Source: an uncultured Alphaproteobacteria bacterium (lineage in GTDB: Bacteria; Pseudomonadota; Alphaproteobacteria; HIMB59). Taken from it: DNA of 64,000 nt. The translations under genes and the position numbers were made by a program. The stretch lies in contig CACLVL010000002.1 in the NCBI GenBank assembly GCA_902610415.1, positions 1-64,000 of the forward strand, written 5' to 3'. The notes under the pieces were generated by a model that ran no database searches, was not told the DNA's origin, and saw only the letters and a program-made list of their open reading frames with translations. Positions 24,649 to 33,720 of the stretch are shown one piece after another (position 1 is the first letter of the stretch; every line of letters starts with the position of its first letter).

Positions 24649-25492
24649 TATAAATTCCTATTAATATTAATGCACTTCCAAAAAACTGAATTGTTGTCAG
24701 TTTTTCTTGAAAAAAGAAGTAGGCTAGAACTGTTGCGGCGATGGGTTGAATTAAAAGACATAGAGATGAGAGAGATGCAGATAAATATGCCAAAGAATAC
24801 GTAATAAATGACTGTCCCATAAATTGGCAAATAAGTCCTAAAAGAAATATTATCGTAATTGTAAATAGGGACTGTGGAATCAAACTTTGCTCAAAAAGTA
24901 TTGAAACAATTAAAAGAATTATTGCTGTCACTATTCCTGAAAGAAACATAATAGAAGTTGAGTTATATTTTTTTCTTAATTGACTAATTGTAACTATGTA
25001 GCTTCCATACCAGACTGCTGTTAACACTCCTAAAAGATCTCCTATAAATTGTGATTTATTAAATTGGAAGCTCTCACCAAGTAACATTAACATTCCCACC
25101 ATAGACAGTAATGCTGCTAAATAAAAAAATTTAGAAAATCTCTCTTTTAAAAAAATTAAGGAAAAGATAATAACTACTATTGGAGCGAGGTTTGATAAAA
25201 AGGTAGCTTTCGAGACAGTGGTAAGTTTTATTGACCAATGCCAACAAATCAAGTCTAGAGCAAAAAAAATACCTGAAACTAGAAAAATTACGTAACTATT
25301 ATTAAATTGAGGAAATTTAATTTTCTCAATTATATTGAAAGATGAAAAAAATAAAAAAAAGGGCAAGCTTATAAAAATTCTATAAAAAGCAGTCATTATT
25401 GGATCTACATCAGAAAATCTTACAAAGATTGGGGAGAAAGCAATCGCAATAGCACCTATTATTAAAATAAAGAATGGGTTTATTTTAGGCAA
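24623..25492 (-). CDS. EamA/DMT family transporter
   Basis: 10-TM EamA pattern. Confidence 0.85.
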   Translation of the reverse strand: MPKINPFFILIIGAIAIAFSPIFVRFSDVDPIMTAFYRIFISLPFFLFFSSFNIIEKIKFPQFNNSYVIFLVSGIFFALDLICWHWSIKLTTVSKATFLSNLAPIVVIIFSLIFLKERFSKFFYLAALLSMVGMLMLLGESFQFNKSQFIGDLLGVLTAVWYGSYIVTISQLRKKYNSTSIMFLSGIVTAIILLIVSILFEQSLIPQSLFTITIIFLLGLICQFMGQSFITYSLAYLSASLSSLCLLIQPIAATVLAYFFFQEKLTTIQFFGSALILIGIYIARSKYEK

Positions 25493-26687
25493 AAACTTCT
25501 TCTGATTTTTCTTTTTCTACAATAGGTAGGTGAATAAAAGCAGAAAATAATGAGATTACTATTGCCATGATCCATGCTAAGTCAAGAGAACCATATGCAT
25601 CTATTACTAAGCCACCCACAAAAGATCCAAAAAAAGCACCTGCTTGATGAGAAACCATAACAATACCAAAAAGAGTTGATAGGTATCGTGTTCCAAATCT
25701 ATTTGCAACAATACCTGAAGTTGGAGGAACTGTTGAGAGCCAGAGTAAGCCAATTAAACAGCTAAAGCCAATGACAACAAAATTATTAGTAGGTAATATT
25801 AACAGGAAGAAGATTACTATGCTCCTTGAAAAATAAATAAAAGAAAGGACATATTTTTTTTTTATAATTCCAGAAATCTTTCCTGATATTAAAGTACCCA
25901 TCATGTTAAATATTCCAATTAATGTTAATCCCGTTGCGGCAATAGTAGTTTCAAGTCCTTTTAATTTTGTAAAAACTGGAAGATAATTTGAGATTAAAGC
26001 TACATGTAAGCCGCAAACAAAAAATCCTAAGATTAAATATTTATAACTTTTATCTTTAAAAGCCTCTTGAAGAACATCTGAGATTTTTCTTTTGGTAAAT
26101 TCTTTTTTATTTTTCTTTTCAGGTTTAGGTAGTAAAAAAATTAAGGATAAAGGTATCATAAATAAGAAAAAAATAGATGTTATTTGAAATGATAAACTCC
26201 ATTGATATGTAGATACTAAAAATTGATTTATCGGTGTAAATATGAACATACCAGAGGCAGCAATAGACATTAATATCCCTGTTACAGTACTTTGTGTTTT
26301 ATCATCTGCGTAAAACTTTGACACGCCTCCAATAATAACTGGTACAGAAATTACTCCAGCAGAAAGTCCACCTATAACACCAATGCCAAATAAGAAATGA
26401 ATCGGGTCAACTGCGGATGATGCTACATAAAATGATAAAGAGACACCGATAAATCCAACGCAGAGAGTTTTTACATACCCTTTTTGTTCAGCAAATGCTC
26501 CTGCTATAGGTGACATGGACCCCCACAGCAGATTAAAAATTCCATATGTTAGTCCAATTAATGAAGCACTAAAAACAGTTGAACCTAATAAATCAGGAAC
26601 GTAAATACCTAAAGACATTCTAAAACCATTCCCTACGCATAGTATTAATCCACTGATTAATATGAGGAAAAACGATTTCATCCGCAT
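25485..26687 (-). CDS. Major facilitator superfamily transporter
   Basis: 12-TM MFS pattern, ~400 aa. Confidence 0.85.
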   Translation of the reverse strand: MRMKSFFLILISGLILCVGNGFRMSLGIYVPDLLGSTVFSASLIGLTYGIFNLLWGSMSPIAGAFAEQKGYVKTLCVGFIGVSLSFYVASSAVDPIHFLFGIGVIGGLSAGVISVPVIIGGVSKFYADDKTQSTVTGILMSIAASGMFIFTPINQFLVSTYQWSLSFQITSIFFLFMIPLSLIFLLPKPEKKNKKEFTKRKISDVLQEAFKDKSYKYLILGFFVCGLHVALISNYLPVFTKLKGLETTIAATGLTLIGIFNMMGTLISGKISGIIKKKYVLSFIYFSRSIVIFFLLILPTNNFVVIGFSCLIGLLWLSTVPPTSGIVANRFGTRYLSTLFGIVMVSHQAGAFFGSFVGGLVIDAYGSLDLAWIMAIVISLFSAFIHLPIVEKEKSEEVFA

Positions 26688-26753
26688 AAATTATATTAAT
26701 GATAGAAAAAAAATATGTTTATTTTTTAAGTATAATATCTATTATACGCCGTC

Positions 26754-26837
26754 ATGGGTTATCCTAAAAAACATCGTGGCAGACGTAAAATCGGTTCTCG
26801 AAAACGTCGCGCCAAACGAAGAGCAAAAAAGAAATAA
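26754..26837 (+). CDS. 27-aa hyperbasic small protein (possible small ribosomal/RNA-binding protein)
   Basis: ATG ORF translates to MGYPKKHRGRRKIGSRKRRAKRRAKKK; 16 of 27 residues K/R; TATAAT at 26731-26736; CGN-rich arginine codons. Confidence 0.65.
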   Translation: MGYPKKHRGRRKIGSRKRRAKRRAKKK

Positions 26838-26882
26838 TTTTATTCATTTTTAATTTTTTATTCTTAAAATAGCACTAATATT

Positions 26883-27341
26883 TTGAATAGAAGATTTTTT
26901 TTAACTTTTACTTTAGGAGGGTGTTTAGTTGGGTTGAAACCTTTATTATCAATGGAAAAATTAGTGTTAACAGAAACAGAATGGAAAGCAAAACTCACAG
27001 AAGAGGAATATTACATACTTAGACAGTCAGGAACAGAGCGCCCTGGTACAAGTGTCTTAAATAACGAAAAGAGGAACGGTGTCTATCAGTGTGCTGGATG
27101 TGATCTTCCTTTATTTACTTCTGATATGAAATTTGATAGTGGAACTGGTTGGCCATCATTTTTTGATTACATTCCAAATTCACTAGGGTTTAAAACAGAT
27201 TTTAAAATTGTAATACCAAGAAAAGAATATCATTGCTCCAAATGTGGCGGTCATCATGGCCATGTCTTCAAAGATGGTCCGGAACCAACTGGACTAAGAT
27301 ACTGTAATAACGGTTTTGCTTTAAAGTTTATTCCAAGCTAA
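26883..27341 (+). CDS. msrB: Peptide-methionine (R)-S-oxide reductase MsrB
   Basis: NGVYQCAGCDLPLF, GTGWPSF, HCSKCGGHHGHVF, RYCNNGFALKF. Confidence 0.95.
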   Translation: MNRRFFLTFTLGGCLVGLKPLLSMEKLVLTETEWKAKLTEEEYYILRQSGTERPGTSVLNNEKRNGVYQCAGCDLPLFTSDMKFDSGTGWPSFFDYIPNSLGFKTDFKIVIPRKEYHCSKCGGHHGHVFKDGPEPTGLRYCNNGFALKFIPS

Positions 27342-27886
27342 TTTTTTTTTATTAACAAATATGAAATTGAGATAGCCAATGCTATTTTTAAAAGTTCACT
27401 ATAAACAAAAGGATATAAACCTGCTTTAATTGATTTTTCAAAACCAATAAAACCAGCAAGATGAGATAATCCACAAACAAAAATTATAGCCGCCCCAATA
27501 AATATTGAAAAAGTAATCTTTAGCAAATTTTTATTAAATAAATTTTTCGAAAAATAAGCGATTACAAAAGAAGCTAAAACCATGCCATACAAAAAGCCAA
27601 AAGTTGGTGACATCATATAACCAAATCCTCCACCAGTAGCAAAAATAGGCAGTCCTGTTAACCCGAGAATAACATAGGATAAAGTTGAGTAGAACCCAAC
27701 TATGCCCATAGAGGCGGCAATAAAATAAACCACAAAGGTTTGAAGAGTCATAGGAACTGGGTAAAATGGAATACTTATTTTACTAGATACAGACAAAAGG
27801 ATAATACCTAATAAGAAAAAACCTAATTTAGAAATATTGCTTGATAAATATTGACTGAGAATTGTGATATTTTTTCTATTTTGCAT
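27338..27886 (-). CDS. bioY: Biotin transporter BioY
   Basis: SIPFYPVPMTLQTFVVYF...LGLTGLPIFATGGG. Confidence 0.9.
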   Translation of the reverse strand: MQNRKNITILSQYLSSNISKLGFFLLGIILLSVSSKISIPFYPVPMTLQTFVVYFIAASMGIVGFYSTLSYVILGLTGLPIFATGGGFGYMMSPTFGFLYGMVLASFVIAYFSKNLFNKNLLKITFSIFIGAAIIFVCGLSHLAGFIGFEKSIKAGLYPFVYSELLKIALAISISYLLIKKN

Positions 27887-32724: not shown

Positions 32725-33720
32725 ATGTTCAGATTTTTTAATTCAAAAAAATGGTTTTTATGGGCTTGGGCTGGATCAGCTGCGATTTTAGGAAGCCTAT
32801 GGGTTCAGGTAGAAATCGATGTCAAAATCAATGAGTGGTTTGGAACTTTTTACGATATGATTCAAAAAGCTCTTGCTGAGCCTAATTCGATTACTATTGA
32901 GGAGTATTGGGCTGGCTTAATGTCTTTTATTACTCTTGCTGGTATTTATGTTGCTATTGCTGTATTAGTGAGTTTCTTCACTGCCCATTTCTTATTTAGA
33001 TGGAGGACTGCCATGGTAGAATGGTATCACAGCGTTTACAACTATGCTCGTACCATTGAAGGAGCAGCTCAAAGAGTTCAAGAAGACACTATAAAATTTG
33101 GAAGAATTATGGAAGGTCTTGGAACTAGTTTAATTGAGTCTGTTATGATTATTGTTCAATTCTTACCAATTTTATTAGGACTCAGCGCTGGTATTCCAAT
33201 ATTCTTTTTTGGTGATTGGGAATATGGTTTAGTTGTTGGTGCATTAATATGGTCAGTTGGTGGAACTATTTTTTTAATTCTTCTTGGAATTATCCTTCGC
33301 CTTGTAGGTGTAGAGTATGATTTACAAAAACAAGAGGCAGCTTACAGGAAAGTGTTAGTGATTGCTGAAGATGATGAAACTGTTCGTCCTAAAACAATTG
33401 AAGAATTATTTGACGACGTAAGAAAAATTCATTTTGTATCATATATTCGTTACCTGTACTTTAATATTGGCAGAATTGCCTATTTACAAGCTAATGTTTT
33501 AAGTGCTTATGTATTCTTAGCACCAGCAATTGTTGCAGGAGTAATTACTCTTGGTGTAATGCAACAAATTATCCGTGCCTTTGGAAGAGTTGAAGGATCA
33601 ATGCAATATTTATTAAAATCTTGGCCAACGATTATTGAGTTAGCAAGTGTTTATAAAAGACTAAGAGAATTTGAGAGAAAACTTAAAGCTACTGCAGGTA
33701 CTGCCAAGGTGTCTGAATAA
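32725..33720 (+). CDS. sbmA: SbmA/BacA-like peptide transporter
   Basis: W-rich N-terminus, VQEDTIKFGRIMEGLGTSLIESVM, ABC-transporter-like TM domain without ATPase. Confidence 0.85.
   Translation: MFRFFNSKKWFLWAWAGSAAILGSLWVQVEIDVKINEWFGTFYDMIQKALAEPNSITIEEYWAGLMSFITLAGIYVAIAVLVSFFTAHFLFRWRTAMVEWYHSVYNYARTIEGAAQRVQEDTIKFGRIMEGLGTSLIESVMIIVQFLPILLGLSAGIPIFFFGDWEYGLVVGALIWSVGGTIFLILLGIILRLVGVEYDLQKQEAAYRKVLVIAEDDETVRPKTIEELFDDVRKIHFVSYIRYLYFNIGRIAYLQANVLSAYVFLAPAIVAGVITLGVMQQIIRAFGRVEGSMQYLLKSWPTIIELASVYKRLREFERKLKATAGTAKVSE

Follow-up and report, generated by a model that had tools for sequence, protein, structure and literature searches.

Within the window, as we call the whole 64,000-nucleotide stretch analyzed here, a sequence-only reading had singled out a 27-residue hyperbasic open reading frame with 16 Lys and Arg residues and one His, which raises the question of whether so short a frame is a real gene and, if it is, what its product does. 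The translation at 26754-26837 matches that description exactly, with 8 Lys, 8 Arg and 1 His. Its fraction of basic residues (Lys plus Arg, 0.59) is the highest among the 555 window ORFs of 20-60 amino acids, the runner-up reaching 0.36, and 40 first-order Markov copies of the window never exceeded 0.43. Two checks proposed with the original description, loss of the frame in relatives and the ratio of synonymous to nonsynonymous change, were then carried through. At 28 of the 29 loci from the same genus (HIMB59/AEGEAN-169 clade; the window is included) all 27 residues are identical, the sole deviating locus carries R16S, and ATG, stop codon and length are kept in all 29. Behind this peptide stand 16 distinct DNA sequences, whose pairwise differences amount to 11.6 synonymous versus 0.24 nonsynonymous (pN/pS ~0.006). 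These data show that 26754-26837 is a genuine protein-coding gene under very strong purifying selection. A chance ORF, or a feature acting at the RNA level without a protein, is virtually out of the question: this explanation is refuted by change that is synonymous only in 28 of 29 loci and by the retained start and stop, and nothing was found in its favor. Rfam gave zero matches within window positions 26000-27600.

The features around the gene are collected in Table 1. As promoter, the sequence-only reading had named a TATAAT with an expected start site about 10 nt before the ATG. That string is real but, given its distribution among relatives, an unlikely -10 element; a conserved TATNNT lies 9 nt nearer the ATG, appearing as TATTAT, TATAGT or TATGAT at -14 to -9, with its final base 9 nt before the start codon. 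Farther upstream, columns -47 to -42, -36/-35 and -32 to -30 are identical in all 21 distinct sequences from the genus. From the position of the TATNNT element, transcription is predicted to start at about -2 to +1, so that the mRNA of the peptide gene would be leaderless in this genus. A Shine-Dalgarno-like string is absent from all 29 same-genus loci and is present upstream of the peptide in 54 of 56 Pelagibacteraceae copies. A generic sigma-70 scan leaves the putative leaderless promoter uncalled. The original description had also pointed to Arg codons of the CGN type in a genome that prefers AGA, and had taken this as a sign of selection for expression. The codon bias itself was borne out (CGN in 6 of 8 Arg codons of the window peptide, against AGA, which makes up 63% of the Arg codons across 56 long window ORFs), but many orthologues encode the identical protein with AGA for 7 of the 8 Arg residues; the CGN choice is therefore lineage-specific and provides no evidence for expression selection.

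Table 1. Features at and near the peptide gene (window coordinates)
Feature	Position	Strand	Basis or remark
MFS-type transporter gene, divergent	25485-26687	-	named by ORF translation, no search
AAAAAA...TTTATTTTT block, possible -35/upstream promoter region (inferred)	26707-26725	+	conserved columns
TATAAT of the sequence-only reading	26731-26736	+	found in 1/21 distinct same-genus sequences
Conserved -10, TATTAT	26740-26745	+	TATNNT in 21/21 distinct same-genus upstream sequences
27-codon ORF plus stop, translation MGYPKKHRGRRKIGSRKRRAKRRAKKK	26754-26837	+	substitution pattern; protein identical in 28/29 same-genus loci
MsrB-type gene	26883-27341	+	named by ORF translation, no search; TTG start as listed, signal-like hydrophobic stretch at beginning
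Transporter-like ORF	32725-33720		~6 kb downstream of the peptide gene

After establishing that the gene is real, we examined how far it extends among bacteria. Of 60 relatives searched across their whole genomes, 50 have the peptide, all 17 high-quality genomes among them, as a single copy; the 10 without a match are all less than 90% complete. Homologues of 27 residues occur in the Pelagibacteraceae (SAR11), in a sister family and in a third, small order (the order of family f25, where 6 of 6 genomes have the peptide), and every host copy that was read is exactly 27 residues long. The same length was found for all 80 loci listed from the 364 confirmed in a scan of named genomes; these 80 are named Pelagibacteraceae, Pelagibacterales, Pelagibacter, HIMB59, or uncultured Alphaproteobacteria or Proteobacteria, and other phyla are possible beyond those listed. 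Among the matches listed there are 12 distinct peptide sequences. A sample of the class yielded 13 of 385 genomes at E <1e-5, in families f1, f2, f25 and f99, with the remainder of that sample lacking a clear homologue; the next match stood at E 0.019, and the weak matches across the class (E 0.02-1) were taken as chance basic stretches. In a sample of the phylum, 2 of 398 genomes (G000 and G156) matched clearly and one more partially (E 0.005).

The order Pelagibacterales was sampled separately and contained the peptide in 85 of 147 genomes. All 85 fall in family f99 among the 105 genomes listed, and the equation of f99 with Pelagibacteraceae rests on the matching sequences and on the names of the database entries. 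A second family, f238, is without the peptide in 18 of 18 listed genomes, and the 42 further genomes without a match lie outside the listing and have no family attached. Six Pelagibacterales genomes without a match were searched again at E up to 10, which gave nothing. Two of the genomes without a match, G812 and G817, are near-complete members of f99; a true loss was rejected for them since the mnmA-like gene that neighbors the peptide elsewhere has no match in either genome, and the entire locus is probably absent from these assemblies. The f238 genomes G801 and G803 do have the mnmA-like gene, but without the peptide next to it.

The peptide is conserved between families and its gene neighborhood varies; around the f2 and f25 genes the neighbors are unrelated. 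Immediately after the peptide gene of the sister family comes a relative (L031:1634-2635) of the transporter-like ORF that lies about 6 kb downstream in the window, an arrangement that appears to be a remnant of a shared gene order. In Pelagibacteraceae, a membrane-protein-like ORF, which gave zero Pfam matches above the cut-off, begins 15 nt downstream in the same direction (L086:6100-6414, L087:6100-6801), and beyond it lies the mnmA-like gene on the opposite strand. At the two f238 loci that were read, neither this membrane-protein-like ORF nor the peptide adjoins mnmA. Ribosomal protein genes stand beside none of the host copies whose neighbors were read.

What the protein might be was approached by comparison with known families. 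Forms of the peptide gave zero matches in Pfam, NCBIfam and PHROG, and none of 177,635 distinct PDB sequences matched at E up to 10 when searched with a single sequence and two profiles, while bS22 and bTHX as control queries matched their own relatives. Literature searches on leaderless microproteins, proteogenomics, small proteins of SAR11 and the structure of the Pelagibacter ribosome found nothing on the peptide, and no structure of a ribosome from the bacteria that carry it turned up. The sequence-only reading had likened it to tiny ribosomal proteins of the bTHX or mS38/COX24 kind, a likeness that holds for size and composition but not for membership. The peptide shares with bTHX a length of 27 residues including Met, an MG start and a basic tail, but the bTHX family (PF17070) gave 0 matches for it against 64.6 bits for a control bTHX; the alignment scored z -0.12, with 200 of 400 shuffles doing as well, and PF17070 had no match over its cut-off in 142 alphaproteobacterial genomes. 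With bS22, mS38 and eL41 it has in common a length of about 24-33 amino acids, a Lys plus Arg content of ~60% and a history of being overlooked by annotation; the bS22 of Borrelia is described as genetically non-annotated, 61% Lys plus Arg and seated in an rRNA pocket (PMC10618245). Unlike these proteins, the peptide has an invariant Y-P, H, G and G-S, so that the similarity is one of composition alone. The bS22/mS38 family (PF08213, COX24_C) gave 0 matches for the peptide (control Msm bS22, 46.2 bits) and was over the cut-off in 0 of 40 relatives, and bS22 aligned no better with it than with shuffled peptides. Alignments to eL41, bL34 and bL35 were likewise at shuffle level. The best ribosomal comparison was Thermus bL32, slightly above shuffles (71 of 1000 reached its score). 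Replacement of bL35 or bL36 was rejected, as bL35 is still present in 17 of 17 panel genomes and bL36 in 16 of 17. That the peptide belongs, in divergent form, to one of the known families of tiny ribosomal proteins (bTHX, bS22/mS38, bL35-like or the bL32 N-arm), as its length and charge class and the bL32 comparison might suggest, is already disfavored by these alignments and by the presence of bL35 and bL36 in addition, and we consider it very unlikely.

The core YPKKH[RK]GRRKxGS is invariant in every aligned copy, and the non-basic residues Y3, P4, H7, G9, G14 and S15 are invariant in an alignment of 17 rows from hosts and phages and again in a separate alignment of 18 host rows; position 2 holds G, A or S and in a single case P. 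Each of the 17 rows has RGRR or KGRR, the first Arg being Lys in many phage copies. Invariant non-basic residues at set positions speak for a fixed binding site over charge alone. The peptide could well be a new tiny ribosome-binding protein common to host and phage, the reading that we tentatively prefer. After removal of Met, a free N-terminus, [GAS]YPKKH[RK]GRRKxGS, would insert into one fixed RNA pocket of the ribosome, with the K/R-rich C-terminus lying along rRNA; the peptide would then work in the manner of bS22, eL41 or bTHX, as a clamp added late that stabilizes rRNA. By analogy with such proteins, the exact host length, the single copy, the translation signals and the invariant non-basic residues are as would be expected for an RNA-pocket peptide. 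Against this reading stand the lack of a PDB match and of ribosomal gene neighbors, and the absence of the peptide from the listed f238 genomes, which suggests that a SAR11-like ribosome can do without it.

Copies in phages bear on the same question. These copies, which lay beyond the reach of the sequence-only reading, are the larger finding. A profile scan of IMG/VR returned 31 loci with the peptide, a scan with a degenerate DNA pattern returned 37 contigs, and a third scan recovered 35 of those 37; all are uncultured viruses as classed by IMG/VR. Every one of the 37 contigs has YPKKH[RK]GRRKxGS followed by a basic tail. In 34 of them the peptide is a free protein of 28-40 amino acids, slightly longer than the host peptide, which starts at ATG, or at GTG in L224 and L236. 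Sorted by neighboring sequence, the 37 contigs fall into about six gene contexts. The first (20 contigs) has a common upstream sequence and, in L147 and L168, its two fully read contigs, is a head module in which the peptide lies upstream of GroES and the capsid gene; here the phage copies sit between head genes (portal, GroES, major capsid), and the capsid of the L147-type phage is 65-67% identical to those of pelagiphages HTVC027P and HTVC023P. The second (9 contigs) is a replication-type module with an HNH nuclease and an ORF that reads as DnaA-like. A single contig each represents a polA phage (L217) and a pelagimyophage-like genome (L236) whose baseplate protein is 57% identical to that of HTVC008M. 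Three contigs carry the free peptide among tRNA genes (L216, 10 tRNAs and a tmRNA; L231, 13 tRNAs and a tmRNA; L224, 2 tRNAs), a point for the ribosome-binding reading, although they have neighbors in common and are probably one phage group, not independent cases. In the last three (L229, L246 and L240) a larger protein carries the motif as its C-terminal tail.

A precedent is offered by bS21 encoded by pelagiphage HTVC008M, which, like the peptide, is small, basic and common to SAR11-type hosts and marine phages, and which is reported to enter ribosomes (PMC6375957); unlike the peptide, bS21 is a widespread bacterial family recognized by profiles, and HTVC008M itself lacks the peptide. During infection the phage copy may supply or replace the host peptide in the same way. 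The related phages count against ribosome binding, as the peptide was found in 0 of 12 related cultivated or complete phages in a whole-record scan that re-found it in 8 of 8 IMG/VR records. In HTVC023P and HTVC027P other small proteins occupy the corresponding place. A tblastn search of the peptide against phages gave no match with the low-complexity filter on, and is hence uninformative.

The fused tails raise a further possibility. In L229 the tail closes a 380-amino-acid protein; in the L240 contig it closes another one, of 398 amino acids and with DUF3008, so the module has moved between head-module proteins. Besides a T4-type capsid protein, L229 also encodes a head maturation protease (phrog_207, E 1.8e-48). 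Cleavage by T4-type head proteases takes place after Glu, and the tails in L229 and L240 follow Glu-Gly; a cut at this junction would leave a GYPKK N-terminus, the same as that of the host protein without Met, although L229 has Lys three residues before the junction, a misfit to the T4 cleavage rule. Core proteins are reported to be cleaved into short fragments by the T4-type head protease (PMC5694885). Under the ribosome-binding reading, one group of large phages would carry the peptide inside the head as a cleavable tail, delivered with the DNA. A bolder version, in which the peptide is a standard part of translation in Pelagibacteraceae and HIMB59-clade bacteria and phages of several lineages both encode it beside tRNAs and tmRNA and pack it as a protease-released tail of head proteins, refitting host ribosomes at DNA entry, is decidedly unlikely in our estimate. 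Alternatively, the host gene may be a captured and domesticated phage gene, at first a virion-delivered or early factor, which hosts keep for the same target (RNA polymerase, RNase, or tmRNA or tRNA machinery being candidates). The greater variety of contexts and lengths in phages than in hosts is consistent with such a capture, as is the junction described above, with its misfitting Lys as a caveat; near-fixation and strong conservation within host families speak against it, 27 residues are too few to read the direction of transfer, and we regard it as unlikely.

The main rival of the ribosome-binding reading is a DNA-condensing, AT-hook-like microprotein. Its RGR core, flanked by PKK and K-x-GSKKRR as in AT-hook peptides with their basic flanks, would clip into the minor groove and condense AT-rich host DNA or packaged or replicating phage DNA. 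Host loci have a G+C content of 23-33%, and a local alignment to HMGA1 AT-hook 2 scores above shuffled peptides (z 3.4; its score is reached by 4 of 1000 shuffles in one comparison and 5 of 1000 in another), a marginal result and one of about 20 comparisons. The placement of phage copies between head genes, or, next to a head maturation protease, as tails of T4-like head-module proteins, fits DNA packaging at least as well as ribosome binding. However, the R-G-R-P core of the AT-hook family (PF02178) is absent, Arg replacing Pro after RGR in every copy, and the Lys in place of the first Arg in many phage copies departs from the core further. HMGA1 hooks 1 and 3 gave z ~0, and the Pfam AT_hook model matches HMGA controls weakly (HMGA1 hook 2 alone, E 0.08) and the peptide not at all. 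Moreover, most phage copies read have 36-48% G+C (L236, 31%), and f238 genomes, with 31-35% at the loci read, do without the peptide. Taken with these points, DNA condensation seems somewhat unlikely.

SAR11 and the HIMB59 clade rank among the most abundant marine cells (PMC10308909), and none of the family libraries searched contains this protein, which they conserve at nearly every residue. Should it be ribosomal, phages have copied an unrecognized part of the ribosome of these bacteria; should it be a DNA clip, these very AT-rich genomes would have an unusual nucleoid protein. The relationship between HIMB59 and Pelagibacteraceae is disputed (PMC10308909; PMC3815206), and a phage-mobile gene common to both bears on that dispute; its presence in both may reflect descent or phage transfer, between which 27 residues cannot tell.

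Inspection of the phage head modules yielded two additional observations. In the T4-like modules (L229:8203-11110 on the minus strand, L246 and L240/L277) there are long polyprotein-like ORFs of repeated segments with EGGPGSGP-type junctions, and the peptide is the last segment of one of them. These ORFs are a possible source of several head peptides. In pelagiphage-type head modules (L179:3653-4501, HTVC027P; L180:3041-4455), several other very basic small proteins lie near the site that the peptide occupies in L147-type phages.
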